Assembly: GCF_017939745.1 (NCBI RefSeq)
Contig: NZ_JAGKQQ010000001.1
Span: forward strand, 5,828,001 to 5,892,000
From: Gemmata palustris
GTDB lineage: Bacteria > Planctomycetota > Planctomycetia > Gemmatales > Gemmataceae
DNA: 64,000 nt
Direction of reading: 5' to 3'
Of the stretch, positions 7,305-54,966 are shown in pieces. A program made the translations under genes and the position numbers. The notes under the pieces are model-generated. The model was not told the DNA's origin and ran no database searches. It saw only the letters and a list, made by a program, of their open reading frames with translations. How positions within the stretch are numbered: position 1 is the first letter of the stretch; each line of letters opens with the position of its first letter.

Positions 7305-9392
7305 TTAAAGGGCGTTGCCGGTCAGGGACTCGATGAGGAGCCCCTCCTGCACGATGTCGTTGGTGGTGGTGGCCTCGCCGGTACACTTGATGGTGATCGT
7401 GGCCCCGTCGTCCTCGGTAGACGAGCCCACGTTCACGTCCGCCTGCGAGACGGTACCGCCCTGGATGAACTGGGCCACGTAATCCTGAGCGTCGGTGCCG
7501 GTGGAATAGACTTCGGCGACGACGCGCCAGCGGTTCGCCTGACTCGTGGTGAGGGACGCGGTGAGAATGACGGTGGAGCCGAAGTACAGTTTGAGGGTCT
7601 TGGCGTTGTTGGCCCCCGTCCCCCAGGCGGTGATGCGGATGCCCTTCCCGGCGGTGTTGAACCTGCCGGCCAGGAGCAAGTACGTGCGCAGGTTGTCCTC
7701 ACCGGTGCCCACGTTTCCGACGGCGGCGGTGTTGACCGAGGGCACGAGCACCGCGCCGTTAGTGCCCGAGAACTCGAGCCCGACGGCGGTGCCGTTCTGA
7801 ACCGTGACCCCACTCGGGGCCTTGTTCCCGTGGCACCGGCCGACGGCGTTTGCGTCGGTGAAGTCGATGAACCGGGTCGCGTGGCCCGTGTTCCCGTCCT
7901 GGATCAGCTCGTTGTTGCTGACGTCGAAGTTGAGCACGTTGAACACGCGCACGATGCGTGTCAGATTCAGGTAGCCCGAGGTCTGGGTGCGGCACCGGTT
8001 GCCGGTGAACCGGATGTTCGATTTCTGGGCGGAGGTGCCGACCTCGGCCATGAACGCGGTCGGGTCGATGAACTCGGCGCTCTCGCAGTAGGTGTAATTG
8101 CCCTGGAGAACCACCCCCCGGCCGAAGTTCTGGATGCGCGCGCCGCGCACCCCGCTGTGTCCGGCGGTCGGGCTCGCGTAGAACCCGATCGAGGTCTGGT
8201 TCTGGGGGGAGCCGGAATCCGGGTTCGTGCGGATCACGTCCAGCGTGCCGCCCTTGAGGTGGACGCCCGAATGGACCCGGACGCTCGCACCCGAGTTGTT
8301 ACTCACGCCGGTGGCGTACCCAGAGGCGTCGATGTACCCGCTGACCACGTCGAGCGTGTCACTCGTGCCGGTCCCCGCGTAATCGACGCAGTTCACGTTG
8401 TACGTGCCGGCGCTGGTGGAAACGCTGTCGGCGGTGAAATCGGACCCGGGGCGGATGTCGGCATTGAGGATGGTCCACCGGCCGGACTGCTGTTTGAAAC
8501 AGCGGCGCGTGTTGCCGTTGTACCGGGCGACGAAGTTTTTAATGACCCCGCCGACGTTGTTGAGCTGCACCTGGAAGAAGTCGGAGTCCTCGTTTGCGGT
8601 CCCCCCGCTCATCTCGAAGTGATCGACGTCCACCCACCCGCACCCTTCGATGTAGATGCCCCGGCAGGCTCCCACGCCGTCACCCAGCGTGCCGTTGCCC
8701 ACGCACGCGAAGTCGGCGAACACGGCACGGCCGATGCGGGCCGAGGTCAGGTTCTTGAGCCACAGCCCGGTGACCAGATTGGTAGCAGTGGTACCGGGGC
8801 GGCCCATGTTGACGATCTGGACGTTGTCGGCCCCGATCAAGGTGCCGCCGTCCATTTTGATCATGTTCTGCGCGAGGTTCTTGCCGTCGCCCTTGAAGTT
8901 TTTGATGCGGATGTTGCAATTGGTGAACGTCCACACGACGTCCGTGCCGGACAGAGCTTCGAGAACCGCCCCTTCCGCGAAGTCGATGGTCAGGTTCCGG
9001 CCGGTGACGGAAACCGCCCCGCACGTGTACGTGCCGGCGGGAAAGGCGTAGGTGCCGTCGGCGGAGAATAGGGTGGTGACGGCCGAAGCGACGTCGGTCG
9101 CGCCGGTGTTGTCGCCGGTGAAATAGGTGGGCACGGTCAGTTCCAGGGCCGCGCGCTGGGCGGCCTCGTCGGTCGCGGTCAGGAGAGCGATCCCGGCCAC
9201 GGAGACGGCGGTGCCCCCGAGTTTGAACCCGGATTCGATGTTGACCGCGTTACTGGACAGCTGGAGCGGGCTCGGCGTTCCCTCGCCGTCCTCGACCGCG
9301 CGGGGCGTCGCGTCGATCCCGGCGTTGCCGTTCGAGATCTGGAGCAGATCCTTGTAGGTGTTTCTCGGCTTCGTGCCGGTCAGTGTCGTCAT
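7305..9392 (-). CDS. Tailspike-like right-handed beta-helix protein
   Basis: 695 aa. An N-terminal attachment region of about 120 residues (DLLQISNGNAGIDATPRAVEDGEGTPSPLQLS) is followed by a repetitive region with pectate-lyase-like turns: FPAGTYTCGAVSVTGRNLTIDFAEG, IRIKNFKGDG, VDVDHFEMSGG, RGARIQNFGRG. It ends in a beta-rich C-terminal domain from about residue 560. This is the architecture of phage tailspikes that bind and often depolymerise surface polysaccharide. It is unusual in lying between head-tail adaptor and gp10 genes rather than after the tip protein. Its presence beside an O-antigen ligase-like gene suggests a polysaccharide receptor. Enzymatic activity cannot be read from the sequence. 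Confidence 0.75.
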   Translation of the reverse strand: MTTLTGTKPRNTYKDLLQISNGNAGIDATPRAVEDGEGTPSPLQLSSNAVNIESGFKLGGTAVSVAGIALLTATDEAAQRAALELTVPTYFTGDNTGATDVASAVTTLFSADGTYAFPAGTYTCGAVSVTGRNLTIDFAEGAVLEALSGTDVVWTFTNCNIRIKNFKGDGKNLAQNMIKMDGGTLIGADNVQIVNMGRPGTTATNLVTGLWLKNLTSARIGRAVFADFACVGNGTLGDGVGACRGIYIEGCGWVDVDHFEMSGGTANEDSDFFQVQLNNVGGVIKNFVARYNGNTRRCFKQQSGRWTILNADIRPGSDFTADSVSTSAGTYNVNCVDYAGTGTSDTLDVVSGYIDASGYATGVSNNSGASVRVHSGVHLKGGTLDVIRTNPDSGSPQNQTSIGFYASPTAGHSGVRGARIQNFGRGVVLQGNYTYCESAEFIDPTAFMAEVGTSAQKSNIRFTGNRCRTQTSGYLNLTRIVRVFNVLNFDVSNNELIQDGNTGHATRFIDFTDANAVGRCHGNKAPSGVTVQNGTAVGLEFSGTNGAVLVPSVNTAAVGNVGTGEDNLRTYLLLAGRFNTAGKGIRITAWGTGANNAKTLKLYFGSTVILTASLTTSQANRWRVVAEVYSTGTDAQDYVAQFIQGGTVSQADVNVGSSTEDDGATITIKCTGEATTTNDIVQEGLLIESLTGNAL

Positions 9393-9395
9393 GTG

Positions 9396-9803
9396 TTACC
9401 CGATGGCCTCCCACGGCGTGTCAATGGTTTCCCAGTTGCCCGGGGTCGTCTCCCAGCTCCCGCGGTCCTCCAGGCGCTCGGCGCACAGGAGCTTCAGGTA
9501 CCGGTTCGCTTCGTTCTCGTTCAGCACTTCCTTGATGTCGAGCACGCGGCCCTCGAGCACCAGGCGGCGGGCCGTGTAGACTTCCGAGCGGTAGCGGAGT
9601 GTCACCCGGTGCGTGAGGTGCGTGTCGAGGCGCTGGGCGACCATCCGCTCGTATCCCTTGAGCGGTTCAACGGATGCCCAGAGCGTGACCACATCCGACC
9701 ACGCGGTGGTGAACCCGCCCTGGCCGTCAGCGGTCTGCGTCTCGGTCTGGAGGGTGACCCGCTTGTCGAGCTTGGCAAAGAGCGGTGCGCTACACTTCGC
9801 CAT
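9396..9803 (-). CDS. Head-tail adaptor (SPP1 gp16 / H-T joining type)
   Basis: 135 aa. Start set at the ATG 9803 (MAKCSAPLFAKLDKRVTLQTET). The motif LDKRVTLQTETQTADGQGGFTTAWSDVVTLWASVEPLKGYE matches the family of head-tail joining proteins that plug the connector. It overlaps the end of the connector gene by 14 nt, arguing for coupling and against longer starts. Confidence 0.87.
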   Translation of the reverse strand: MAKCSAPLFAKLDKRVTLQTETQTADGQGGFTTAWSDVVTLWASVEPLKGYERMVAQRLDTHLTHRVTLRYRSEVYTARRLVLEGRVLDIKEVLNENEANRYLKLLCAERLEDRGSWETTPGNWETIDTPWEAIG

Positions 9804-10422
9804 ACACCTTGAACGGTTGGAGGAGGGCGCGGCAGGCGGCAGGTAAGTCGCACACGAGGCGTGATTCGTACATGCTCGCCACGTGCATGAGAATCGCGTG
9901 GCGGATCGGTTGCGGCACTGACGCGCCGGTGGCCCCATACCCGTTGGCGGTCAGTACGGAGATCGCGGCAGCGGGGCGTAAATTCGTGGGCCAGTAGCTC
10001 CCGTCGTTCAGGAGCAGGCGGCTCCCGGCGGCGTCCAGTGTGTAGTTGGCGGAGGAAAAGGCGGTGGCGGTGTTCGTGGTATCGGTTGTCGTCACCGACG
10101 TAATGGCACTCACCGGCGGGCGGGAGAGCGAGATGATACGCGGGAGTGCGCCGTACAGGGCGGAAACCGGCAGGTCGTACACTCCGTCGGGCAACTCGTT
10201 CGCCCATCCCGAGCACCCGAGATCGAGCGTGAGGGTCACGGCTTGGGTTATGAACGCGCGCCCAGTGAAGGATTCGGCGGCCTCACGAGCGGCGGCGATG
10301 AGTCCCGTCAGCAGGTCGTCGTCATCGTCCCCGTCGACCTTGAGCCACAGCTTCGCCTCGGCCACGGTGACCGGCTCACTGGCCGGGGGCGTGGTAACGC
10401 GGATGTGGCGGCGGAGCGACAT
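9790..10422 (-). CDS. Head-tail connector (gp6-like)
   Basis: 210 aa. N-terminal VTVAEAKLWLKVDGDDDDDLLTGLIAAAREAAESFTGRAF is the standard start of the gp6-like connector family (conserved phage protein of about 200 aa). The C-terminal helices (IRHAILMHVASMYESR) complete the fold. It forms a ring between portal and tail. It begins one base after the stop of the 89-aa gene. Confidence 0.9.
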   Translation of the reverse strand: MSLRRHIRVTTPPASEPVTVAEAKLWLKVDGDDDDDLLTGLIAAAREAAESFTGRAFITQAVTLTLDLGCSGWANELPDGVYDLPVSALYGALPRIISLSRPPVSAITSVTTTDTTNTATAFSSANYTLDAAGSRLLLNDGSYWPTNLRPAAAISVLTANGYGATGASVPQPIRHAILMHVASMYESRLVCDLPAACRALLQPFKVYGEV

Positions 10423-10692
10423 TTACTTCTTCGGCTTCTTGGTGAGCAGCGGCTTCACCGGCTTGGTTTCTTCCGGTTTAATGACCTTCGTTTCGCGGGC
10501 TTCGGCGTCGACGACGGCTTCGATTTCGGGTTCCGGTTCGGGAACTGGAGCAATCAATTCGGCCCAACCTTCTTTCACCACGACTTCGGCCAGTGAATCG
10601 GACAGCCGGGCTTCGGTGCCCGCCTCGAACTCGTGGCAATCGTGGCCCGTTTGAGAGCCCTTGAAGGACTTCAGGATGCGGTAGTTTTTCAT
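10423..10692 (-). CDS. Small acidic/Lys-rich phage protein, 89 aa
   Basis: Starts at the ATG 10692, overlapping the O-antigen ligase-like stop as ATGA. The N-terminus YRILKSFKGSQTGHDCHEFEAGTEARLSDSLAEVVVKEGWAE resembles short phage proteins located before the connector gene. The C-terminus is low-complexity, Pro/Glu then Lys/Pro rich. Function unknown; possibly a minor head protein. Confidence 0.65.
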   Translation of the reverse strand: MKNYRILKSFKGSQTGHDCHEFEAGTEARLSDSLAEVVVKEGWAELIAPVPEPEPEIEAVVDAEARETKVIKPEETKPVKPLLTKKPKK

Positions 10693-11786
10693 GCGAGTGA
10701 CTCCTTTCGTGCGTGGGCGTGCCACGCGAGGGTGAGCCCGGCGAGGATGCTCACCGCCGGGACATAAAACTGGAACTCGACCATGCCCTGTAGGAACACG
10801 ACGAACAGGGCGCAGGCGGGGGCCACATTGTGTTTCCGTGTGCTGATAGCAACGCACGCCGCGAGGGCGCAGAAGATCAGTGCGACCGGGATTCCCGCTT
10901 CCACGGCCAAATGGAGCACGTCGTTGTGCGCGTAGAACCCGCTGGAGAGGCCCTCGGTACGGACCTGTGCGTAGTAGTACGCGAAGCTCCCGAGCCCGAG
11001 CCCGGTCTGCGGGGCGAGTTGGAGCAGTGACGCCGACGCCCCCCAGATCGGGAAGCGGTAGGTAAACGATTTCACGGCCTCGCCGAAAAGCGATTCGTAC
11101 ACACCGGGCGAGACGAGACAGAGGACCGCAAGAGCGGAACCACCGGCCGCACCGAGTGCCAGAACGGGACGGAACCCGATTTGTCCGATCAGGATGAGCC
11201 CGCAGGCCATGATCGCCGAGGCCCCACCGGCAAACGATTGCGTGCAGTAGAGGGCTGCAGCGAAGAGAATCGCCAGGAGCCAGTATTTCGTGTTGCGGAA
11301 GCCCGCCCAGAAGGCCGGGATCAGCCCGCAGTTGAGCACCGCCGCCGCGTTGTTCGGGTTCAAGAGCGGCCACGCCACGCCGTTGAAGTTGTATTCCGTG
11401 TACTGGACCCCGAGGGCGTACTGGGTGATGAGACCGGCGGCGTACACTGCGAGCACGGTGCCGAAGCACCCGAAGTAGCTCGGGAGATCCTCCCGCTTCA
11501 GGCACAGGGCCAGGGCGGGCATCGCGGCGAGGATCGCCAGTGTCGCGGCACCCCCGCGGACCGGTGCCAACAGGAACGCGGACGCGCTGATCGCAACGAG
11601 CCAGATCAAAGTGAAGTGCCAGGTGGCGGGCTTACTCCCCCGGAAGTCACCCCGGTAAAGAAGAGCCGCGCACCCGGCGATGAAGAACAGCACCCACGCT
11701 CCCGCCAGCGGGCTCGCCGTCGTCTGCACGAGCAGGGCGACGATGAGCGCTGTGGCGTGGAGAAGCGCGGGCACGAGAACCGGCAT
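10689..11786 (-). CDS. O-antigen ligase/polymerase-like polytopic membrane protein
   Basis: 365 aa with about ten hydrophobic segments spread along the length. A large periplasmic-type loop in the second half reads FPIWGASASLLQLAPQTGLGLGSFAYYY then AHNDVLHLAVEAGIP. The G-x-G-x-G-x-F/Y pattern and the HN-xx-L-xxx-E-x-G motif are typical of WaaL/Wzy-type proteins, which join or polymerise lipid-linked O-antigen in the inner membrane. It is coupled to the preceding 188-aa gene (1-nt overlap) and the following 89-aa gene (4-nt overlap), so it belongs to the phage operon rather than being a separate insertion. A role in altering host surface polysaccharide (lysogenic conversion or superinfection exclusion) is inferred. 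Ligase versus polymerase cannot be decided. Confidence 0.72.
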   Translation of the reverse strand: MPVLVPALLHATALIVALLVQTTASPLAGAWVLFFIAGCAALLYRGDFRGSKPATWHFTLIWLVAISASAFLLAPVRGGAATLAILAAMPALALCLKREDLPSYFGCFGTVLAVYAAGLITQYALGVQYTEYNFNGVAWPLLNPNNAAAVLNCGLIPAFWAGFRNTKYWLLAILFAAALYCTQSFAGGASAIMACGLILIGQIGFRPVLALGAAGGSALAVLCLVSPGVYESLFGEAVKSFTYRFPIWGASASLLQLAPQTGLGLGSFAYYYAQVRTEGLSSGFYAHNDVLHLAVEAGIPVALIFCALAACVAISTRKHNVAPACALFVVFLQGMVEFQFYVPAVSILAGLTLAWHAHARKESLA

Positions 11787-12352
11787 TACTGCACGGTGTA
11801 CGGCAAGTTGATGAACAGGTGCGTGGTCGTGGCGAGCGTACCGGCCGAGGACACCTGCACCGCCTCACCGGACGGGCACCCACTCACGAGCGCCGTGCCG
11901 CGGGTAATCGACGCACCGTTGACCGAGGAAAACGCACCGACGGGCGTGGCGTCGACCAGGGCCGCAATCGGGAAGGTCGCGATAATGTTGCCGCCCGAGC
12001 ACTTGAGGCTGACCGAGGTGGCCCCGGAAGCCGTGCCGCTCGCGTACAACCCGAAGCCCGCGCCGACGACAATGGATTTGCCGGTGGCACTGGCCAGGAT
12101 CGTCTGCCCGGCGTTCGCCTGGGCCGTGGTGACCGTGGCCTTCGTGACTTGCAACAGCGGGTTGCCGGTCAGGGCGGTGGAAAAGGTGAGCCCGCTGGTT
12201 TCAACGGCAGAGCCCGACTCGAAGTCGATGGTGCCGCCGCTGTTAACGGAGAGCGTGCCGTCGGTCTTGCAGATGGGCGTGGTGCAGGTCGCCGCGGATG
12301 CACCCGTGGCGAAGAGCCCGAGCACGGCGGCGATGAGGATGTGTAACTTCAT
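11786..12352 (-). CDS. Secreted or virion protein with signal peptide, 188 aa
   Basis: A clear Sec signal peptide covers residues 1-20 (MKLHILIAAVLGLFATGASA). A Cys pair (ATCTTPICKTDG) and a Ser/Gly/Thr-rich beta domain follow, ending …HLFINLPYTVQ. Phage capsid decoration proteins do not normally carry signal peptides. With the coupled membrane glycan gene it may form an exported two-gene cargo module. No family recognised. Confidence 0.6.
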   Translation of the reverse strand: MKLHILIAAVLGLFATGASAATCTTPICKTDGTLSVNSGGTIDFESGSAVETSGLTFSTALTGNPLLQVTKATVTTAQANAGQTILASATGKSIVVGAGFGLYASGTASGATSVSLKCSGGNIIATFPIAALVDATPVGAFSSVNGASITRGTALVSGCPSGEAVQVSSAGTLATTTHLFINLPYTVQ

Positions 12353-12375
12353 GGTCCCCTCCTTTGGGAAAGAGT

Positions 12376-12395
12376 GGGAGGGCCGAAACCCTCCC
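12376..12395 (-). terminator. Hairpin between the 188-aa and 147-aa genes
   Basis: A 7-bp perfect stem (GGGAGGG/CCCTCCC) whose minus-strand loop is TTTCGG, followed on the minus strand by ACTCTTTCC. It is a weak intrinsic terminator or RNA-stabilising hairpin. The same loop and a similar stem recur at 28281-28302 and 30176-30197. Confidence 0.5.
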
Positions 12396-12403
12396 GACGT
12401 GAG

Positions 12404-12847
12404 TTAAGCGGTTGCCTGAACGACCGGCTGCATGGTGGCGTTGGCGAGCAGGGCCATCGCGCACAGCGGGGCCGCGCCGGAGTTGTTCCCGCTCGGGGTG
12501 ATGGTCAGGCGCAGGTACCGCTTGGTGCCGATGTACCCGAGCTTCCGCACCTGATCGTCGTGAGTGAACGTGAAGCTGGCGGCGGTTTCGGGCGCACTGG
12601 TGCTCTGGGAGATCATGTCGGCGTCGGCGACGGCCGTGTTGTCGCTCAGGGCCGAATTGTCGCCCTCTTCGAGCAGCACGGTAAACGTGGCGTCGGCGTC
12701 GGTCAGGCCGCCGGTGGCGATCACGAACGTGACGGACTCGAAGCCCTGGCGGTCGATGATCTGGCCCACCAGTGCGGTGTCGCTGTTGGTCTGGGTGACC
12801 GGGCTGATGACCCGCTTCACCTGGATGCGGTTGGTAAAGTCTCTCAT
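12404..12847 (-). CDS. Head-associated protein downstream of capsid, 147 aa
   Basis: Starts MRDFTNRIQVKRVISPVTQTNSDTALVGQIID, contains VTFVIATGGLTDADATFTVLLEEGD and is beta-rich. Proteins of this type directly follow the major capsid gene in several siphoviruses and are proposed head decoration proteins. It is separated from the capsid gene by a terminator, which would reduce its expression relative to capsid. Name based on position. Confidence 0.6.
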   Translation of the reverse strand: MRDFTNRIQVKRVISPVTQTNSDTALVGQIIDRQGFESVTFVIATGGLTDADATFTVLLEEGDNSALSDNTAVADADMISQSTSAPETAASFTFTHDDQVRKLGYIGTKRYLRLTITPSGNNSGAAPLCAMALLANATMQPVVQATA

Positions 12848-12873
12848 GGGATGAATCCTTTCAGTGGAATGCG

Positions 12874-12899
12874 AAAAGGGACGGGATCGCTCCCGCCCC
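12874..12899 (-). terminator. Intrinsic terminator after the major capsid gene
   Basis: On the minus strand a 9-bp stem (one G-U pair) with GCGA loop is followed by TTTTCG. It lies 12 nt beyond the capsid stop codon. Partial termination here would make capsid mRNA the most abundant, a common arrangement in phage late operons. Confidence 0.65.
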
Positions 12900-12910
12900 G
12901 GTTACGATGC

Positions 12911-14200
12911 TTAGCTGCTGATCTTCTGGATCTTCAGGGCCTCGAAGTTGATGACCGCCCCGCCGACGCGCTTCGTGGTGTAGAAGCTCACATACGGTTT
13001 GTCGGTGTACGGGTCGCGCAGAACGCGCAGCCCGATGCGGTCCACGATCAGGTACGCCGCGCGGAAGTCCCCGTATGCCATCGCCAGCGCATTGGAGGCC
13101 ACTGCCGCCACGTCCGCCGCGAAGCTCACGGGCTTGCCCATGATGGTGGGCTCGAGACCTGCGTTCTTGTCGTAGGACATGTTGAAGATCGGGCGGCCCT
13201 CGCCGTCGACGAGCTTCAGCAGGAAGGCGTTGGACGCGCGGCGGATCAGGAACCGGGCGTTCCCCTGGTACGGCTCCTTAAGCGCGTTCTGGAGGTCCAC
13301 CAGTCCGGCATACGTGAACGTGCTGGCCGAACCCGAGTTCACCTGCTCCACCTGCTCGGCGGTGATGTCGGTGCCGGAGGTGTAGCTCATGATGCCGCGC
13401 GGCTTGGCGATCCCGTTGCCGGTGACGAACGCCGTGGCCTCGTCGCGGGCGAACTTCTCGGCCACCTTCCCGGCGAGCCACGCTTCCATGTCGATGCTCG
13501 CGTCATCGAGCACGGTCTGGGTCGCCTTGGGATTGGCGTACAGTTCGTGCGCGGTGATGGTGATCTTGCCCAGCGTCGGCGTGTTGGTGGTGGGGCGAGA
13601 CGACGTTTCGCCGGCCCAGCCGGACCCGGCCTCGTCGTTGTCGATGATGTACTCGTAAGCCAGGGAGCCGATCTGCTGGACCGAGGCCAGGGCACGCATC
13701 GGGGACGATTCGTACACCTTGGTGCTGATGATGCCGCCCATTTCCGGGGTCACCAGGTACCCGCCGTTGGGGTCGGTGCCGACGGACAGGGCCTTCAGTT
13801 CGACGTCGTTCGGGTATTCTTCCTTCACGAAATCGTCGAAGTAGAGCTGGCTCTTGCCGCTCTGGCCGGTGTCCTTGCGGGCGAACGCGTTGATCGCCTT
13901 CTTGAACTTGATGCGGGTCGCCTTCTCGTCGGTGACGGAGCCGAGCGGGCCGCGGTTGAGTGCGGCTTCCAGGGCCTTCTGGTTGTCCTCCAGGGCCTTC
14001 GCGCGGGCTTCCGTCTTCTGGTTCAGTTCCACGGCGTCGCCGATGGCCTTCTCGATCTTGTCGAACTTGGCCAGGTCGAGCGCGTCGAGCTTGCCCTCGA
14101 GCGTGTTGGTCTTGGTCTGGATCGTTTCCACGACCCCCTTGTACTCGTTGAACGCTTTGAGGGCGTTTTCGAGTGCGGGTTTCATTTCTTCTAGTGACAT
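12911..14200 (-). CDS. Major capsid protein (HK97 fold)
   Basis: 429 aa. N-terminal about 115 residues are a charged coiled coil (scaffolding delta domain). The mature part begins near KALSVGTDPNGGYLVTPEMGGIISTKVYESSPMRALASV, followed by GWAGETSSRPTTNTPTLGKITI, then ATAFVTGNGIAKPRGIM and a C-terminal YGDFRAAYLIVDRIGLRVLRDPYT. These are canonical HK97 capsid blocks. It is preceded by the protease gene (8 nt gap), which would remove the delta domain during maturation. Confidence 0.96.
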   Translation of the reverse strand: MSLEEMKPALENALKAFNEYKGVVETIQTKTNTLEGKLDALDLAKFDKIEKAIGDAVELNQKTEARAKALEDNQKALEAALNRGPLGSVTDEKATRIKFKKAINAFARKDTGQSGKSQLYFDDFVKEEYPNDVELKALSVGTDPNGGYLVTPEMGGIISTKVYESSPMRALASVQQIGSLAYEYIIDNDEAGSGWAGETSSRPTTNTPTLGKITITAHELYANPKATQTVLDDASIDMEAWLAGKVAEKFARDEATAFVTGNGIAKPRGIMSYTSGTDITAEQVEQVNSGSASTFTYAGLVDLQNALKEPYQGNARFLIRRASNAFLLKLVDGEGRPIFNMSYDKNAGLEPTIMGKPVSFAADVAAVASNALAMAYGDFRAAYLIVDRIGLRVLRDPYTDKPYVSFYTTKRVGGAVINFEALKIQKISS

Positions 14201-14208
14201 GGTGCTAC

Positions 14209-14832
14209 CTATATCTTGAATTGGTTGAGAATGTGTGTCAGTACGGCCTCCTCGCCCCCAGCCTCTCGCTGACCGGACAGTGCCTTGAACCCCTTGGCCA
14301 CGATGATCTTCGCGGCGTCGCGGCTGTATCCTGCCTCTCGCAGGAATTCTTCAAACTCGCGCTCGTTCTCGTGCGCGCCTTTCACCCCCGTGATGACGGC
14401 CCGCTCGTTGGCCGGGAACGTCACGAGCGAAGCCTCCCACAGCTTCACCTGTTCCAGGCGGCGGGTGCCCTTGGCCTTGTCGAAAGCGGACTTGGTGGGG
14501 GAGTACCCGATGCTGAGGCGGTCGATGGCCCCACTGCGGAGTTCCTCGGCGGCGTCGCGCCCCAGGGTGGTGTTGAGCGTCTTGCCCACCAGGATCAGCC
14601 CCTTGCTGTCCTCGGCCCCGCTCTCCCACACGCCGGGGATACGGTGCGGGTCGTGCTGGTACAGCATCTTGGGCATGCGCTGGGCGAGCGAGTCCTTGAA
14701 CGCGCCGGGCATCACGATGTCGTTCTGACTGTCGACGTTCCCGAACGTGGAGGCGTAGCCCTCAATGGTGGCGACGCCGGTGTCGGCGAACTTGACCTCG
14801 AATTCGGTCAGCTCGATGTGTTTGCGTTCCAT
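14209..14832 (-). CDS. HK97-family prohead protease
   Basis: 207 aa. Catalytic triad candidates are His60 (LYQHDP), Ser107 (RLSIGY) and Glu133 (LWEASLVTFPAN), in the order of the herpesvirus-assemblin-like S78/U35 proteases. It also carries IEGYASTFGNVDSQNDIVMPGAF. It cleaves scaffold and capsid delta domains. A ribosome-binding site (GAGG) lies 6 nt before the ATG, which follows an intrinsic terminator by about 20 nt. Confidence 0.95.
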   Translation of the reverse strand: MERKHIELTEFEVKFADTGVATIEGYASTFGNVDSQNDIVMPGAFKDSLAQRMPKMLYQHDPHRIPGVWESGAEDSKGLILVGKTLNTTLGRDAAEELRSGAIDRLSIGYSPTKSAFDKAKGTRRLEQVKLWEASLVTFPANERAVITGVKGAHENEREFEEFLREAGYSRDAAKIIVAKGFKALSGQREAGGEEAVLTHILNQFKI

Positions 14833-15776: not shown

Positions 15777-15960
15777 CGGTTTCGCCGGGGAATATCAGGT
15801 GCTCGATCCACTCCATCATCCCGATCCACACGGTGAGGCGGTACAGGCGCACCAGCTCGTCCTGATAGAGGAGCTGCAAATCGGCGCCAGCGATGGGACG
15901 TGTGGGCGTGTAGTGCAGGCGGATCACCTTATCGTCCTCTTCGCTGAAGCTCGTGATCAT
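15754..15960 (-). CDS. Small phage protein between portal and minor head genes, 68 aa
   Basis: Contains LHYTPTRPIAGADLQLLYQDELVRLYRLTVWIGMMEWIEHLIFPG. Mostly helical with an amphipathic or hydrophobic centre. It is coupled to the portal gene by a 4-nt overlap and overlaps the minor head gene by 23 nt. Function unknown. Confidence 0.6.
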   Translation of the reverse strand: MITSFSEEDDKVIRLHYTPTRPIAGADLQLLYQDELVRLYRLTVWIGMMEWIEHLIFPGETDESPDAT

Positions 15961-17333
15961 TCGGCAGGCTCTGGTTGTGGGGCCGGTTCCGGTGCAGGAG
16001 CGGGCTCGGGTTGTGGGCTCGGATCGGCCGGACTGCCGGGCTCCGATAAGTCCATCGCACCGAGTAAGTCAAGCGGCACGGTGCTGGACGGAACCAGGAG
16101 CGTGTCGGCCATCTCGGAATCCAGTTTGTCGTAACCCGCGCCCTCGCGTTTTTCGTTCGGGGTCAGGAAGCTGGCTTTGTTCAGGCGGTCGGATTTCGCG
16201 GCCCGCAGCGGCTCGAGTGCATCAATCGTGTCCGGGTCGTACCACAGGAACAGGTCATCGCCGTACAGCGGCACCAGCCAGCGATTCAACGCCTCCAGTT
16301 CGACGCCGAGTGTGGTGAGCACCGTGCCGTTCCAAAACGCCTGGTTCGCCTGTTCCATGTTCGCGTAAGTGAGGCTCCCGGGGATGCCGATCAGCTGCGG
16401 GGGAACCCCGAACGCCATTGCGATGTCCGAGGCCGCCGCGTGCTTCCCGTTGAGGAAATCCGCGTCCTTCGGGTTCATTGACATTTCCTGCCACTCCAGG
16501 CCCCCTTCGAGGAGGAGCGGGCGGCCGGCGTTGGACGAGCCGGAGAACTGCTGGTCGATCATCGCCTTGAGGCGGTTGTACTGCTCGTCGGTGAGCGAAC
16601 CCTGCCCGCCGTCCTGGTTCTTCACCACCAGCGCGCCGTCCGGTTTCGCACCGTTTTTCAGCAGCGAGTAGTTCCACTGGCTCCCGGCGTTGTGCTGGTC
16701 CACGGCCAAGGCCGCCGCTTCGAGCGAGGCGAGGCCGTACCACGGGGAGAGCGGGTTGAACGTTTTGAGGTGAAGCACAGAGCTGCGGCCCGTGAGCTGA
16801 TCCACCGGGTACTCGATGAAATCATTGGCCCCGGTACGGTAACGGTACGCTCTGGGCATGATGCCACTGTCCGGTGCCATCACCTGCACGCATTTGGGCA
16901 GCAGCAGGTCGAGCCCGAGGGGTATCTTCTGGCGGCCGTTGAGCCCGAAATTGCCGAGTACAAAGGCGTTTCCCGACAGGCAGTAGTAACTGGTCAGGTG
17001 CCGCAGGAACTCCTTGCCCGATTGCAGCGGGTTCGGGCGGTCCATGAGTGTGAGCAGCTGCATCGCCGGAGAGGTATCGGGTTCCTCGAACCGCTCGACG
17101 CGCTCCAGTTCGCCGTCTTTTTGCCGGAACAACACCAGCTCGATGCTGGCGACGCTCGTGGAAATCATGTCAACGCACCGGCGCACCACCGGGTTCTGCC
17201 CGTAGCCCTCCGACGCCATGCGGTCGTAGCTGTACGACGGCGGGGCGGTCATTCGTGCGACGGTGAGCACCGTGCCGTAGTTTTTCTTCTCCGGCGGTGT
17301 GGGGGCGGCCTTTCGGCTGAAGGGCCAGATCAC
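15957..17333 (-). CDS. Portal protein (HK97 family)
   Basis: 458 aa. Core motifs: NPVVRRCVDMISTSVASIEL, then TLMDRPNPLQSGKEFLRHLTSYYCLSGNAFV, then SVLHLKTFNPLSPWYGLASLEAAALAVDQHNAG, then GVPPQLIGIPGSLTYANMEQANQAFW. All are typical of HK97-type portals, the dodecameric DNA channel and packaging-motor docking site. The C-terminus ends in a Pro/Glu/Ala-rich tail of about 27 residues. It overlaps the large terminase gene by 4 nt. Confidence 0.96.
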   Translation of the reverse strand: MIWPFSRKAAPTPPEKKNYGTVLTVARMTAPPSYSYDRMASEGYGQNPVVRRCVDMISTSVASIELVLFRQKDGELERVERFEEPDTSPAMQLLTLMDRPNPLQSGKEFLRHLTSYYCLSGNAFVLGNFGLNGRQKIPLGLDLLLPKCVQVMAPDSGIMPRAYRYRTGANDFIEYPVDQLTGRSSVLHLKTFNPLSPWYGLASLEAAALAVDQHNAGSQWNYSLLKNGAKPDGALVVKNQDGGQGSLTDEQYNRLKAMIDQQFSGSSNAGRPLLLEGGLEWQEMSMNPKDADFLNGKHAAASDIAMAFGVPPQLIGIPGSLTYANMEQANQAFWNGTVLTTLGVELEALNRWLVPLYGDDLFLWYDPDTIDALEPLRAAKSDRLNKASFLTPNEKREGAGYDKLDSEMADTLLVPSSTVPLDLLGAMDLSEPGSPADPSPQPEPAPAPEPAPQPEPAE

Positions 17334-18694
17334 AGGGACCGGATGTTCGGTTGGGCGTTGGGACCGATCAGCGCGTTGAACGCACCGGACAGGCCGTCAA
17401 CCTGGTCGTCGTGCGTATTCGGGCTGGGGAAGCTCTCCAGTTCCGTGAAGAACGCTTCGTTCCACGCACCCCGGACCACGCGGATGTTACCCGCACCCGC
17501 CTGTGCCGATGCCGGTGACGCGCGCGTCACCTTGTCACCTGTTTCTCGTTCCGCTGTCACGTTGTACCCGGCCAATTTGTTGATGAGATATTTCGCCTGC
17601 GATTTCCCAGCCTGGCCGGGGTCTTGTGGGAGGTGAATGTGAACGCCCCGGCCGTCATTCGCGGCGATGTTCATGATCTTGCTCTCGACCGTGTTCGGGT
17701 CGCCCCGGAATCGCTCCACGTGCTCGACGTAGAACGTCCCGTGCGCGTCCCGTGACAGCCTCAGCCCGACGGTCCAGTCGGGATCGACGCCCTCTTCGGT
17801 CGTGGTTGCCGCGAGATCCCAGCTCCGCACCCTTCGTGCTTCGGCCGGTGCGGCGTCCACGAGGGGGAAATTGCTGCGATTGAATAGGAGCCCGGCTGCG
17901 GGGCGGATCTTCCAGTTCCCGCGGAGCAGGCGCTCCTTGTTAACGACGTCCTGGGCCTTCAAGTTCCCGAGGTACCCGGGGTCTTTGTCGAGCAGGATCT
18001 GGTTGTCGAACACGCTGGACGCGACGAACGTGAACGATTTCACGTCGTGCCGGGTCAAGTCGGTGTACCGGTCGAGCAGTTCCTGTGGGTGGTCCGCCCA
18101 GATGATGTCCTCGCCCTGGCGGACGAAGTACCGGATGACGCCGCTCCGCTCGGGAAGCGCGTACCCAGTTTCCGGGTCGATGTACCAGGCGACGAGCCCG
18201 GCCACGAACGAATCGGGGTCGGGGTTGCAGCTCGCCCGGACGTAGGGGCGGATGCCGCACGTCGAGCGGTTGCGGCTGAACATGTACCAGAACTGCTTCT
18301 TGGTGAAGTGCGTCAGCTCGTCGAACGCGATGAGCGGGATCTGCGACCCCTGCCACGCGTAAACTGTGTTTTCGTGTTCGAGGTGGCTGAAGCTGATCGC
18401 GGCCCCGGACGGGAACGACCAGTCGAGCTTGCCCTCGCGGGGAACGCCACCAACGGCCCCATACAGCGGCTGGCTCTCGTCCCAGAGTGCGCCTTCCTTG
18501 AGGATGTCGGTCGAGTTCCGGCGGAAGATGACCGCGCCGAACTTCGGGTTGTTGATGTGCCGAGTGGCTTCGAGCAGCAGGGCGAACGATTTGCCCCCAC
18601 CGGCTGCACCGCCGTAAATGGCGAGGTCCGCCGGCGACGCGAGGAAGACTTCCTGCGGCCCCGGTTGCGGTTTAATCCCGCTTGTCTCGGCCAT
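17330..18694 (-). CDS. Terminase large subunit
   Basis: 454 aa. Walker A at about residues 28-36 (GGAAGGGKS), Walker B IAFDELTHF. Nuclease domain begins with RSWDLAATTTEEGVDPDWT (first acidic residue) and ends with a DDQVDGLSGAFN acidic pair. This two-domain motor-nuclease translocates DNA into proheads and cuts it. It overlaps the small terminase gene by 23 nt and the portal gene by 4 nt. Confidence 0.96.
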   Translation of the reverse strand: MAETSGIKPQPGPQEVFLASPADLAIYGGAAGGGKSFALLLEATRHINNPKFGAVIFRRNSTDILKEGALWDESQPLYGAVGGVPREGKLDWSFPSGAAISFSHLEHENTVYAWQGSQIPLIAFDELTHFTKKQFWYMFSRNRSTCGIRPYVRASCNPDPDSFVAGLVAWYIDPETGYALPERSGVIRYFVRQGEDIIWADHPQELLDRYTDLTRHDVKSFTFVASSVFDNQILLDKDPGYLGNLKAQDVVNKERLLRGNWKIRPAAGLLFNRSNFPLVDAAPAEARRVRSWDLAATTTEEGVDPDWTVGLRLSRDAHGTFYVEHVERFRGDPNTVESKIMNIAANDGRGVHIHLPQDPGQAGKSQAKYLINKLAGYNVTAERETGDKVTRASPASAQAGAGNIRVVRGAWNEAFFTELESFPSPNTHDDQVDGLSGAFNALIGPNAQPNIRSL

Positions 18695-19196
18695 TATCCG
18701 GCAGGTACACGTTGACCGAGCCCGCGAGCGTAATGCCGCCCTCCAGTTTTACCTTGTCGTTAAACATGCCGAGGTGCCGTGCGATCTTCTCCAGCGCGGA
18801 CACTTTGTCGTGCAGTTTCAATTTGACCGTCCCGCCCTCGGCCGTGACCGTCTGGGAGACCTCGGCAATGCACCGGGTGGCGTCGTCGTTCAGCTCTTCG
18901 GACGGCACGAGTTGAACGGCACTATCGTTCCAACTCATGTAATGGCGGATGTTCGAGAAGCCGAGGCGGCCCAGTTCGGCCATCACCATGTCGGCGGTGA
19001 TCTGGGTGCGCTGCGAGCGAGCGTCCATTGCCTCTTTGAGAGCGGCTTGAATTTCAGGTTTCTTGAGGTTCTCGTGGCCCATTGATCCGGCCGTATCTTC
19101 GCTGTACCCGGCGCGGATCGCGGCCTGGGTGGCGTTCAGATCGATTAAGTATTCCTCGACGAATCGCTGTTGTTTGGGGGTCAGTTCTGTGGCCAT
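18672..19196 (-). CDS. Terminase small subunit
   Basis: 174 aa. Start taken at the ATG 19196 because the product then begins MATELTPKQQRFVEEYLIDLNATQAAIRAGYS, the standard N-terminal HTH of phage small terminases; the open frame upstream has no protein-like character. It recognises the packaging site and recruits the large subunit. The start codon lies only 9 nt after the T-tract of a terminator and has no clear Shine-Dalgarno sequence, so expression probably depends on transcription entering from upstream or on unusual initiation. Confidence 0.92.
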   Translation of the reverse strand: MATELTPKQQRFVEEYLIDLNATQAAIRAGYSEDTAGSMGHENLKKPEIQAALKEAMDARSQRTQITADMVMAELGRLGFSNIRHYMSWNDSAVQLVPSEELNDDATRCIAEVSQTVTAEGGTVKLKLHDKVSALEKIARHLGMFNDKVKLEGGITLAGSVNVYLPDNGRDKRD

Positions 19197-19205
19197 CGGG
19201 GCAAT

Positions 19206-19229
19206 AAAAAAGCCGCCCGGAGGCGGCGG
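19206..19229 (-). terminator. Intrinsic terminator immediately before the terminase genes
   Basis: On the minus strand GCCGCC-TCCG-GGCGGC is followed by TTTTTTA, a textbook intrinsic terminator ending 9 nt before the small terminase ATG. It would block transcripts entering the late operon unless antitermination occurs. Confidence 0.8.
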
Positions 19230-19738
19230 TGTGTTTCTGTGGCAAAAATTCGATTCTGCCGAATTGTGCCACTTCACGGTGAATCGCGCAAGAAAAATCG
19301 GAAGGCTAAATGCAGTTCTGGGTTGAGGTTGTAACGGGTGCGTTCGTTGATCGCCCGTGGCAATTGTGAGCATTTGTTTCGTTGTTAGAGGACCAGCTGA
19401 TAAAAGAATGACACCCACGCTCCACGCCTCACGTGCCGCGGGCATCTCGCGTCCGGCCACGGACTGCTCACGCCCGAGTATCTCAACCCGCGTTGAGCTC
19501 TATCCGGCGCAGTCGGTATGCTTTTGCCGCTGCTTACTCAGTGTCGAAGTAGCCGAGGTGACCCGCGCGAAGTGTGGAGCGGAGGCGCGTCGGGGGTGTG
19601 AGTGGACGGGGTGTCGCGGAAAACGCTTGGCCGGAGTTGCTGCCCCGGCCGCGTCGCGTCGGCCACGCTCACCCGCGCAGGCGGGATCATTGTGGACCGG
19701 CAAGGACGATCCGCGAGGAGAGACGGACCGGGAACCGG
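19230..19738. other. Non-coding stretch upstream of the late operon
   Basis: No convincing gene. It probably holds late-operon control sequences or the packaging site recognised by the small terminase. It contains a small perfect inverted repeat CTCAAC-CCGC-GTTGAG (19482-19497). Other short open frames here lack ribosome-binding sites and protein-like composition. Confidence 0.4.
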
Positions 19739-31109: not shown

Positions 31110-31490
31110 GAGCCGATCTCCTTTTGATTTCTATCGCCTGGCGATCTAGCAAGGTCAGAGGATCGCCGATACGACATCGTGAATGGTAGCAGCGAGTGAA
31201 CAACCAGAAGAATTGTTTATTGTTTCCCTCATCACCTTTATTGTTACATTCGAGTCGCACGGCGAGCGCGCTTCTTTACCGGCGATTGACTGTGCCGAGA
31301 GTTTCATACCTCGCTGGGGCGACATAAACAACCTCTGGGGCGAAGTCATTCACCGCACCTCAGAAGCCCCGTTTTAGAGCCATATTCACGGTGAATATCC
31401 CAGATCAAGGAGAGTGTCTGCTAGTCCAATTTTCTTGCGCCCTCCACCAACCCGCCTATAGTGCATCGGCACCCCAGCCGAGGCCCCACC
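31110..31490. other. Intergenic region with repeat B and relaxase leader
   Basis: No gene recognised. AT-rich at 31185-31250 (possible promoter for the secreted-protein gene). Contains repeat B and about 90 bp of leader before the relaxase. An oriT could lie here, next to the relaxase gene, but no diagnostic nic site can be read. Confidence 0.4.
31331..31400. repeat. Imperfect direct repeat B (about 70 bp)
   Basis: ACCTCTGGGGCGAAGTCATT then CACCGC … ATATTCACGGTGAATAT. Partner of repeat A; together they bracket the secreted-protein gene. Lies about 90 bp before the relaxase start. Confidence 0.7.
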
Positions 31491-32477
31491 ATGTTGAACT
31501 TCGAGGCGCGCTACAACGCCAAAACCGCGAAAGCTTACTACATGACTGAACAAGCCGCGACGCCGGTGTGGTTCGGAAAGGCGGCGGAGATGGCCGGGCT
31601 CGAGGGGGAGGTTTCGCACAAGGAATTTTCGAGACTGGTGGATGGCCTGCACCCGACGACGGGCGTGAAGCTGACTCCGAGGAAGACGCAGGTGTGCCTG
31701 ACGGATGTGACGCTGTCCCCGGTGAAGAGCGTGGCGATTGCGATCAGCCTGACGGGGGATCGGGAGCGGTTGATCGAGGCCGTTCAGAACGCGGCCCTCC
31801 ATGCACTGTCGCTCGGTGAGCAGCACGCGGCGGTGCAGGATGCGAGCAACGGGAAGAAGTCACACATCGTCACCACCGGTAACTGGCTCGGGGTGCTCCA
31901 CGCTCACGAGACGACACGGCCGGACCCGGTGACGAAACAGTCCGATCCCGGATTCCACCTGCACGCCACGCTCGGGAACAGTTCGTGGAACAACGACCGG
32001 CAGGGGTGGTTCGCCCTCAAGTCGCAGTATGCGTGGGAGCAGGCCCCGGAGATGGAGAAGGCGTTTCACGCGAAGCTCAAGGAGAACATGCACGCCCTCG
32101 GGTACAAGACGCGGTCCGCACGCCACAACGCCGGGTGGGAGCTGAAGGGCGTCACGCCGGGCATGATTAAGAAATTCTCGAACCGCTCGACGTTCCTGGA
32201 TCGGCTAGGCGAGGGGCTGAGCAAGAAGAAGAAGGCCCGGCTCGCGGCAAGGGAACGGTTGCCGAAGCGTCCCGACCTGTTCGTTACCGGAGAGCAGAAG
32301 GAACGGTGGATGAGTCGGTTGACTAACTCAGAGCGGAAGGCCCTGAGTTCACTGCTGAATCCCACTCCGCCGGACTGGATGGTGCGGATGCGGCAGCTGC
32401 GGCAGGTCGCGTGGTTCAAAGCCCGCCAGCAGAACCAGGAATCGCAGCCACGGGAGAGGTACATCGCGTATGGCTGA
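31491..32477 (+). CDS. MOBF (TrwC-type) relaxase, relaxase-only
   Basis: 328 aa from ATG 31491 (an in-frame GTG at 31461 is the alternative). N-terminal Tyr pair (KAYYMTEQ, residues 16-17) is the candidate nicking Tyr; TPVWFGKAAEMAGLEGEV and LTDVTLSPVKSVAIAISL match the TrwC core; GFHLHATLGNSSWN supplies the metal-binding HxH motif. Such enzymes nick oriT and pilot the transferred strand. The helicase domain of large MOBF proteins is absent and the C-terminal 100 residues are basic. Cognate coupling protein candidate: 48040-49431. Confidence 0.82.
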   Translation: MLNFEARYNAKTAKAYYMTEQAATPVWFGKAAEMAGLEGEVSHKEFSRLVDGLHPTTGVKLTPRKTQVCLTDVTLSPVKSVAIAISLTGDRERLIEAVQNAALHALSLGEQHAAVQDASNGKKSHIVTTGNWLGVLHAHETTRPDPVTKQSDPGFHLHATLGNSSWNNDRQGWFALKSQYAWEQAPEMEKAFHAKLKENMHALGYKTRSARHNAGWELKGVTPGMIKKFSNRSTFLDRLGEGLSKKKKARLAARERLPKRPDLFVTGEQKERWMSRLTNSERKALSSLLNPTPPDWMVRMRQLRQVAWFKARQQNQESQPRERYIAYG

Positions 32478-40008: not shown

Positions 40009-40257
40009 TCCTCAATGTCTTTCGACATCCCTCCCCGGAACACTTCGAGGCTTTGAAGATCAGTTCGCGCCCGTGCTCAAATGTCAGGGCGGTTTTCTTC
40101 TAGCTCCGGAATTGACAGGCCTGTACGATGGCCCGAGAGTTTGTGCGATAAATCGAAAATTTGATTGAAAATTTGGCCAAATTCGGCGTTTCCGCACAGG
40201 CCCTGAGTTCCGATGCCCGTTTCGAGTGGCCCCTCTTCCGGCCCTTGGAGAATCAGC
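40009..40257 (+). promoter_or_regulatory. Probable promoter region of the PEP-CTERM gene
   Basis: AT-rich 40150-40190 with repeated AAAATTTG words (AAAATTTGATTGAAAATTTGG) unlike the GC-rich surroundings. A TTGGAG ribosome-binding site lies at 40245-40250. Confidence 0.4.
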
Positions 40258-53475: not shown

Positions 53476-53727
53476 GTGCTCACCGTAAAGCAGGCGGCGG
53501 AGCGGGCCGCCGTGTCGGAATCACTGATCTACGCCTGGATCGCCGATGGCACCCTCCCGCACGTGCGGCTCGGGCGGAAGGGGAAGCGCGGGACCATCAG
53601 AGTTTCGGTAGAGGATTTGGACGGCGCGCTCGCAACGTTCAAGGTGGGGAAGAGTGAGCCGGGACCAGCAAAGGCCCCGGCCCGCAAAAAGGCGGTCACG
53701 CTGAAGCATCTCCAGATGCCTTCTTGA
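53476..53727 (+). CDS. Excisionase (HTH_17)
   Basis: 83 aa, GTG start. LTVKQAAERAAVSESLIYAWIADGTLPHVRLGRKGKRGTIRVSVEDLDGALATF is a full excisionase/MerR-type winged helix; basic C-terminus. Convergent with the integrase, their 3' ends overlapping by 32 nt. It probably binds att arm sites and directs excision of element 1. Confidence 0.88.
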   Translation: MLTVKQAAERAAVSESLIYAWIADGTLPHVRLGRKGKRGTIRVSVEDLDGALATFKVGKSEPGPAKAPARKKAVTLKHLQMPS

Positions 53728-54724
53728 GCGTGTCCCGAAGGTGGCGATCAGCGGTGTGCAAATGGCTGTACGTGGTCGCCACCATTTTACCGTCCGCGTG
53801 ACCGAGAAGCTCCGCGACGGTGAGGTGGTCAGCACCGCTCTCCAGCAGCCGCTCACAGAAACCGTGCCGGAAGTCATAGGCTGCGAATTTGATCCCGAAG
53901 TGCTTCTTGAGTCGCCCGAACCGACACGACATCGCTTGAGCGGTCCACGGCACGCCATCCTCGTTTAAAAACACCGGGCCGGTCGGGTTGTCGCGCACCA
54001 GGACGGCGAGAATCAATCGGGCGGGTGGGGTCAGGTGGATCACCCGGGGCCGCTTCTTGCCCTTGGCCTCTTCCGCCGGGAACACGACCCGCTCGCGGCC
54101 GAACTCGACGTGGCGGGCCTCGATCCGCTTCGACTCCTGGGGGCGGCACCCGCTCTCCCACGAGAACTCCAGCAGAAGGGCGAAGGGATCACCGGGAGGG
54201 TAGTGGGCCTTGATCTTCTTCCAGTCGGCGGGAGAGACGGCATTCTCTCGGCGGTTCGGCTTCGGTTTTTCGATGTGCTTAATTGGGGTGGCCGGGATGT
54301 AGCCGAGTTTTTCGCCCCAGTTAAAGGGCCGTTGGATGGCAACGATTCCGCCCCGCCGGTAAGCCGGTCCCCAATCCTCGTGCGAATCCGCCCATTCGAC
54401 GACGTGGAACGGTTTCAGGTCGGCCACGGGTTGGCGGCAGACAGCGGGGGAGAAATTCAGGAAGTCTTGGATGTGGTCGCGGTACCACTCGAAGGTCCGC
54501 TTCTCCCGGTGCTTCTCGCACCAGTCGAGGAACTTGTCGAAGATTTCGACGGTGGTGGGACCGGTTGGAACTGTGGGAGCGGGGAGGTCTTTGACCGCCA
54601 TCAGCTCATGGAAGAGCCGATCCGCCTCGGCCTTATCGGAGCCGAGGTTGTGGCGGTCGCCGTTGATTGTAACGAAGTACGCGTTGCGATCAGCCCGGAA
54701 CCAGGGCTTGGGAGTGCGGGCCAC
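53696..54724 (-). CDS. Tyrosine integrase of element 1
   Basis: 342 aa. N-terminal AP2/SAM-like DNA-binding region (FLDWCEKHREKRTFEWYRDHIQDFLNF). Catalytic domain: Arg in WESGCRPQESKRIEARHVEF, then AAYDFRHGFCERLLESG (Arg of the HxxR box, with Tyr in the usual His place), LLGHADGKMVATTYSHL with the nucleophile Tyr. Its start faces the 3' end of tRNA-Asp 170 bp away, the standard layout for integration into a tRNA gene. Confidence 0.93.
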   Translation of the reverse strand: MARTPKPWFRADRNAYFVTINGDRHNLGSDKAEADRLFHELMAVKDLPAPTVPTGPTTVEIFDKFLDWCEKHREKRTFEWYRDHIQDFLNFSPAVCRQPVADLKPFHVVEWADSHEDWGPAYRRGGIVAIQRPFNWGEKLGYIPATPIKHIEKPKPNRRENAVSPADWKKIKAHYPPGDPFALLLEFSWESGCRPQESKRIEARHVEFGRERVVFPAEEAKGKKRPRVIHLTPPARLILAVLVRDNPTGPVFLNEDGVPWTAQAMSCRFGRLKKHFGIKFAAYDFRHGFCERLLESGADHLTVAELLGHADGKMVATTYSHLHTADRHLRDTLKKASGDASA

Positions 54725-54882: not shown

Positions 54883-54893
54883 TGTTTTCTAGC

Positions 54894-54966
<73 letters not shown>

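Follow-up and report, generated by a model that had tools for sequence, protein, structure and literature searches.

Introduction

Wzy proteins carried by phages are already known from phages D3 and epsilon15, from Acinetobacter baumannii prophages and from phage VarioGold. Surface-sugar genes that temperate phages carry are regarded as genes of lysogenic conversion, and those of D3, epsilon15 and VarioGold are located outside the virion operons. In D3 and epsilon15 (AF165214 and AY150271, respectively), the polymerase gene follows the tail fibre or tailspike gene, on the opposite strand and near polymerase-inhibitor genes. Both phages encode membrane proteins that match the Pfam family Wzy_C, epsilon15 Wzy-beta at 40.0 bits, above the cut-off, and D3 Wzy-beta at a sub-threshold 21.9 bits. 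According to excerpts of PMC9241936, a phage-borne Wzy of A. baumannii changes capsule linkage, its relatives there belonging to the EpsG family and not to Wzy_C; phage-borne Wzy in A. baumannii prophages is also reported in an extract of PMC13228068. In the temperate phage VarioGold, a Wzy_C protein with 10 transmembrane (TM) segments is encoded beside a signal-peptide protein (VG_p25/VG_p26), on the opposite strand to the late genes and adjoining the lysis cluster, and its authors suppose that the pair is expressed in lysogeny (excerpts of PMC9658991).

The residues R215, R288 and H338 are important for the function of Escherichia coli WaaL, whose gene lies in the LPS locus, and they are conserved in PglL (PMC3643930, in part). 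The same excerpts describe O-oligosaccharyltransferases of the PglL/PilO kind, Wzy_C proteins beside an exported protein: 21 of 31 pglL homologues are next to or near pilin homologues, and Pseudomonas aeruginosa PilO adjoins a pilin gene yet lacks the PglL motifs. In the open-licence literature we found no report of a Wzy gene between phage head genes, which is the position of the gene described here.

Results

A Wzy_C gene inside a prophage head operon

The window, that is, the whole 64,000-nucleotide stretch of DNA that was analysed, holds part of an integrated element. The 23-base end of the tRNA-Asp gene occurs exactly twice in the genome, at C1:5816185-5816207 and C1:5882891-5882913, and this exact repeat marks an element of 66.7 kb integrated at tRNA-Asp, with its left end about 12 kb before the window start. 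PF07596, a family linked to planctomycetes, has 135 matches in the host genome and was found in 0 of 14 control genomes, which suggests that the host is a planctomycete. The main features are listed in Table 1. Read along the coding strand, the genes are those for the terminases, portal, Mu-F-like protein, protease, HK97 capsid and phrog_5707 protein; then come P0002, P0001 and an 89-aa gene, and after them the connector and head closure genes, the 695-aa fibre-like gene, two short genes, and neck and tail genes.

Table 1. Features of the head operon and of the element (window coordinates unless another genome is named)
Feature	Position	Strand	Remarks
695-aa fibre/tailspike-like protein	7305..9392	-	no Pfam/PHROGs hit of note
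Head closure protein	9396..9938	-	true start probably near 9806 (by eye)
gp6-type head-tail connector	9790..10422	-	
89-aa head gene (weak phrog_2616), slot right border	10423..10692	-	start overlaps P0001 stop by 4 nt (ATGA)
P0001, 365-aa polytopic Wzy_C (PF04932) protein	10689..11786	-	Pfam match, alignments, ATG start
P0002, 188-aa, signal peptide (by eye) fused before head-fibre-type motif LSVNSGGTIDFESG	11786..12352	-	stop overlaps P0001 start by 1 nt
Slot left border: 51-nt spacer with GC hairpin (about 12395-12376) and Shine-Dalgarno before first slot gene	12353..12403	-	by eye
phrog_5707 head-operon protein, left flank of slot	12404..12847	-	
HK97-type major capsid protein	12911..14200	-	
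Prohead protease	14209..14832	-	
Portal, large and small terminase genes	15957..19460	-	upstream, orientation as head operon
TrwC relaxase	31461-32477	+	elsewhere: G000 C1:2281238; G028 C16, C3, C8 (two), C1; G002 C1:5914294
Integrase, right end of 66.7-kb element	53696..54724	-	beside tRNA-Asp 54892-54966

The initial annotation had described a polytopic WaaL/Wzy-like gene locked in a head operon between capsid and connector genes, and our analysis bears this out, with the qualification that P0001 is not directly beside the capsid gene, the phrog_5707 gene and P0002 intervening. P0001 matched PF04932 (Wzy_C) over residues 171-306 (E 2.4e-12; 47.3 bits against a gathering cut-off of 31.7), and eight TM segments were counted by a crude Kyte-Doolittle scan, the TM and signal-peptide scans used throughout being simple hydropathy rules. 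Wzy_C was the sole Pfam family matched. NCBIfam gave no match, and PHROGs gave a single meaningless one at E 0.1. By homology, P0001 is a member of the Wzy_C family. Its GC3 of 0.83 was ordinary beside the 0.70-0.92 of the neighbouring genes, and a foreign codon composition was dropped as an explanation.

The overlaps claimed at both ends of the gene, of 1 nt upstream and 4 nt downstream, are present as TAATG and ATGA. The start codon of P0001 shares one base with the stop codon of P0002, and P0001 has no Shine-Dalgarno of its own; its translation therefore probably depends on that of P0002. A scan of 9300-14300 for sigma-70-like promoters returned 0 sites, against 0.6 expected. Promoter-driven expression in the lysogen was accordingly dropped, and the earlier suggestion of an action in the lysogen found no support as far as this one type of promoter is concerned. 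The beta-helix tailspike read by eye in the 695-aa product was likewise backed by neither Pfam nor PHROGs. The C-terminal 140 aa or so of this protein are 38% identical to a signal-tagged 205-aa protein that a related prophage (L063) encodes at the site of P0002 and P0001.

Relatives and predicted fold of P0001

No search that we ran found a close homologue of P0001. Pattern scans, which detect close relatives only, yielded 2 stretches in IMG/VR with P0001 as query and 63 with alignment A1 (described below), and 42 stretches in genome contigs, of which none was confirmed in any of the three scans. With tblastn against 50,697 phage records there was one hit, at E 0.3. Among 99 related genomes, 15 matched P0001; one of these is the window's own genome, and the best of the other 14 matches, in G097, has 37% identity over 153 aa. 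Among 392 genomes of the phylum, G097 was the only match at E<=1e-9 besides the window. The nearest sequences found are large Wzy_C proteins of the host's class (for example, L002 and that of G097), which have EA.KS..YR..W and G.G.F in common with P0001. Their open frames in the related genomes are 737-857 aa long, as against 365 aa in P0001. The host genome has two other Wzy_C genes above the cut-off, which could be targets of P0001.

Alignment A1 comprised P0001 and 10 of the 14 hits from related genomes; L008, L011 and L015 were left out as near-copies of rows kept, and L013 because its open frame reads, by eye, as an unrelated oxidoreductase. Across all 11 rows, P0001 among them, 21 columns were invariant. 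Together with the ordinary composition, these kept columns argue against simple decay of P0001.

The predicted structure likewise pointed to WaaL, as the earlier reading implied, although the model was weak. AlphaFold, run with 11 sequences, gave a pLDDT of 55.9 and a pTM of 0.50, and only residues 141-310 were modelled better (block means 54-89). The best PDB match was the O-antigen ligase WaaL (7tpg_B), with a Foldseek E of 1.6e-4 and, by VIA, a Z of 13.3 and an rmsd of 4.8 over 254 residues; the next match was FtsW at Z 7.5. VIA warns that helical bundles without kinship can reach a Z of about 13. True kinship with WaaL is nevertheless favoured by the distance in score from the next matches and by the sequence similarity to Wzy_C, and a WaaL-like polytopic fold is suggested by this low-confidence model, at a Z near the level of the warning. 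In a viral fold library, no match was found at E<=0.001, the best being an uncharacterised protein of Arthrobacter phage Faja (E 0.0099).

A near-invariant arginine is replaced in P0001

E. coli WaaL and P0001 have in common the Wzy_C domain and, according to the model, the fold, whereas no significant pairwise BLAST similarity was detected between them (best E 0.93). In the alignment, R215, R288 and H338 of WaaL correspond to F185, R244 and H287 of P0001, so that the equivalents of R288 and H338 are present and the arginine at the R215 site is absent. In the F185 column, arginine stood in 10/10 homologues of alignment A1, all of them proteins of the host's class, and in 7/7 others of alignment A2. 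At 50 other Wzy_C loci, arginine was found at the F185 site in 50/50 and at the R244 site in 50/50, and histidine at the H287 site in 46/50. Of these loci, 30 were those retrieved for the best-scoring Wzy_C matches in the class and 20 were picked among lower-scoring rows; they overlap A1 and A2, include near-identical orthologues and do not count as 50 independent cases. In a comparison based on an HMM iterated with P0001 included, epsilon15 Wzy-beta had an arginine aligned at this site, and D3 Wzy-beta, by eye, carried one in the equivalent stretch. A sequencing error of one base at F185 was considered and dropped, the codon TTT being, by eye, more than one base from arginine.

The loss of the arginine rests on alignments, and another residue could replace it in space. 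P0001 is a Wzy_C homologue by its sequence, but it cannot be classified among the canonical O-antigen ligases or polymerases, because one of the tested features, the R215-site arginine, fails. The earlier idea that the gene remodels the surface as a normal enzyme is therefore doubtful.

The partner protein P0002

The coupling of P0001 to a signal-peptide protein, also claimed earlier, was confirmed, the signal peptide of P0002 being recognised by eye and through comparison of its sequence with those of homologues. Shortly after the signal-like N-terminus stands the sequence LSVNSGGTIDFESG, and the protein is rich in Ser, Thr and Ala. The pattern [LV].[VIF].SGG.[IVL].[IVLF][EAQDS]SG was found in 4 of 121 sequences (P0002, L070, L185 and L207) and 0 times per shuffle; it was written after P0002, L070 and L185 had been seen, and L207 is the only independent hit. 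All four carriers lie at most 0.8 kb downstream of a phrog_5707 gene, directly after it in the window, L070 and L207 and in third place in L185. Only in P0002 does a signal-like N-terminus precede the motif, the other three being without one.

Pairwise similarity of P0002 to these proteins was weak (L070, E 5.5e-4 with composition correction off; L185, E 0.017). Against phage records there was no match at E<=1, a pattern scan of IMG/VR gave 18 stretches with 0 confirmed, and in 95 genomes of the family P0002 matched only itself. The predicted structure had a pLDDT of 34.0. The archaeal Pilin_N family was rejected for P0002, at 18.7 bits against a cut-off of 25.2. P0002 looks like an exported relative of head-fibre-type proteins, its export being suggested by the leader.

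P0002 and P0001 occupy a cassette slot

With capsid matches below 50% identity set aside, eight other prophages were left, whose capsid proteins are 55-66% identical to that of the window over the stretch matched. Five of them are in G028, and the window's own genome, G005 and G002 have one each. Comparison with them revealed that the P0002-P0001 site is a cassette slot, whose edges are conserved and whose inside varies, being empty or holding other genes, often fibre-like. The slot is fully readable in five of these relatives (L063, L064, L067, L068 and L070). It is empty in L067 and L068; L063 carries two signal-peptide proteins of 205 and 107 aa, L064 proteins of 178 and 91 aa, and L070 a protein of 245 aa. 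L065 and L066 hold a relative of the 178-aa protein, and the 228 and 242 N in their slots leave no room for a Wzy_C gene. In none of the eight was a Wzy_C gene seen between phrog_5707 and connector, although the 3260 N in the slot of L062 could hide one. P0001 had no match at E<=1e-3 in G002, G005 and G028.

On the left, the phrog_5707 stop is followed, in the window and in 5/5 readable relatives, by a spacer of 45-57 nt with a GC hairpin and a Shine-Dalgarno (by eye). RNAalifold predicted from the six spacers a hairpin of six pairs, two of which change on both sides yet stay paired and two of which have broken cells. Several of these hairpins have a TTCG-type loop, and a role as attenuator or mRNA stabiliser is possible; a role as terminator was dropped, since a terminator scan did not flag the hairpin. 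On the right, the Shine-Dalgarno of the 89-aa gene is GAAAGGA in the window and L064, with close variants in L067 and L070 and a weaker one in L063. In the window, the final codons of P0001 coincide with it. The 4-nt overlap thus follows from a flush insertion of the cassette that kept this Shine-Dalgarno inside the end of P0001, and it loses the meaning of a special coupling that it had been given.

In IMG/VR, we surveyed the best 80 of 85 loci with a phrog_5707 relative. A gene for the 89-aa protein, connector or head closure lay downstream in 52 of these best 80, and the distance from phrog_5707 to this border was at most 250 nt in 28 loci, 251-600 nt in 7 and more than 600 nt in 17. No scanned stretch of the best 80 (1500 nt where no connector was seen) had an open reading frame with at least four TM segments. 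The Wzy_C profile, iterated with P0001 included, found nothing significant in 109 fetched viral and genome loci (1.10 Mb; best E 0.16).

Ten hand-picked slot proteins were compared with profile libraries. Four had PHROG matches at E<=0.001 (head protein, tail fibre, minor tail and a polysaccharide deacetylase family), and Pfam matches above the cut-off were to a Gp80 fibre domain, a K1-lyase C-terminal domain, fibronectin III, a SWM repeat and, narrowly, NosD; the remaining ones had no hit above the cut-off. In L149, a leader of 32 residues precedes a Gp80 fibre domain that starts at residue 33 (L149:6205-6735; 150.5 bits). The 107-aa protein of L154/L063 matches the tail-fibre family phrog_12296 from residue 23, and its homologue in L064 (54% identical) has no leader. 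Signal-tagged fibre proteins that would be exported by their leaders thus occur in the slot of two other phages, L149 and L154/L063. The leader-like N-termini noted on fibre- or decoration-type slot proteins, besides that of L149, are at L154:8114-8437 and 7478-8095 and at L171:9955-11709, the last with its narrow NosD match only. No Wzy_C gene was found in the slots of L149, L154 and L171.

Discussion

Our results place a Wzy_C homologue that has lost one of three residues important in WaaL in a cassette slot of a phage head operon, starting without a Shine-Dalgarno on the stop codon of a signal-tagged gene. In D3 and epsilon15, both of which we checked, the conversion genes do lie elsewhere than between head genes, as had been stated. 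The position in the head operon, the coupling to a putatively exported relative of fibre proteins and the lost near-invariant arginine point to interference with the cell surface in the lytic phase, perhaps by inhibition rather than catalysis.

Tentatively, we regard P0002 and P0001 as a late, export-directed pair that may interfere with or alter the assembly of surface glycans. Both proteins would be made late in the lytic cycle. P0002 would enter the periplasm, and P0001 would span the inner membrane and expose its WaaL-like site to the periplasm, where it might engage lipid-linked glycan or lipid A-core. Without the equivalent of R215, P0001 would act in a non-canonical way, competing with the host's ligase or polymerase or using an altered donor. 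Together with P0002, its partner in the periplasm, it might alter or mask the surface polysaccharide, so that neither progeny nor rival phages would adsorb to cells already doomed. Several points count against this explanation. The model of P0001 is poor, the loss of the arginine is read from alignments, and P0002 resembles the other fibre-type proteins weakly. Signal-tagged fibre proteins, moreover, do not need a Wzy_C gene, since those of L149 and L154/L063 stand without one alongside.

Three other explanations have to be weighed, each of which we hold to be unlikely. As an oligosaccharyltransferase of the PglL/PilO/TfpO type, P0001 might transfer a lipid-linked glycan to P0002 and so yield a glycosylated exported fibre. 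The coupled, signal-tagged and Ser/Thr/Ala-rich neighbour would suit such a protein O-glycosylation pair, as would the frequent vicinity of pglL homologues and pilins, the PilO that adjoins a pilin without PglL motifs, and the VarioGold pair, which also joins a Wzy_C gene to a signal-peptide gene. Yet only Wzy_C, and no Pfam model of the PglL type, matched P0001 at E<=1; the arginine common to WaaL and PglL is missing, the partner is fibre-like and no clear pilin, and in an unaligned comparison by eye, P0001 has N, Q and Q where the Q, H and P specific to PglL would stand. This explanation is improbable in our judgement. Little credence, too, is given to canonical serotype conversion, in which P0001, as an active polymerase or ligase, would modify the O-antigen in the manner of Wzy-beta of D3 or epsilon15. 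That epsilon15 Wzy-beta belongs to the same Pfam family, with its D3 counterpart below the threshold, speaks for it, and so does the change of capsule linkage by the A. baumannii protein, though the relatives of that protein are of the EpsG family. What weighs against it is that the arginine kept in epsilon15, and by eye in D3, is absent from P0001, that placement and strand differ from both phages, and that the sigma-70-type scan saw no promoter of its own.

P0001 might also be a passenger or decaying gene, trapped once in the slot without a selected role. Its absence from the readable slots of close relatives and from 109 further loci would be expected of such a gene, as would the loss of a residue invariant in 50/50 others. 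The open reading frame is intact, however, the 21 invariant columns are kept, the gene starts exactly on the P0002 stop and its GC3 is ordinary, and a mere passenger is accordingly not what we would expect. A random insertion had been named as what the gene might turn out to be: absence from the readable operons of relatives and clean boundaries agree with that view, but the insertion is not random, as it uses a recurrent slot.

Returning to a late pair directed at the cell surface, a wider form of the idea is doubtful but deserves mention. Tailed phages may export signal-tagged versions of their own head-fibre-type proteins late in infection, and here such a protein would be paired with a WaaL-like membrane protein without the arginine of the R215 type, either as a dead-paralogue inhibitor of host O-antigen assembly or as a dedicated glycosylation unit for the exported fibre. 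In the literature that we searched, no phage system of either kind was found. The presence of signal-tagged fibre proteins in the slot of several phages raises the question whether fibres are exported to block the phage's own receptors.

Other genes of the element

In 8/8 testable prophages of this family, the window's among them, a relaxase gene of the TrwC type (MobF) is oriented divergently to the head operon at a distance of about 15-36 kb from the capsid gene (two in the host genome, five in G028 and one in G002; in G005 the contig ends too near). A conserved relaxase of the conjugation type is unexpected in a family of tailed phages. Its open frame in the window element is 350 aa long and may be truncated; in the seven other prophages the frames are 929-1136 aa in six, in two pieces in G002, and 564 aa in one. 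The element also encodes a protein with a PEP-CTERM motif at 40213-41004 (+; 22.7 bits against a cut-off of 20.7), a TraG/TrwB-like ATPase below the cut-off at 48040-49431 (+) and a DDE transposase at 50383-51717 (-). Immediately beyond the element, across the tRNA from it, is a second integrase gene, at 55104-56297 (+) of the window. Five related prophages (L062-L066) are present in the single genome G028.
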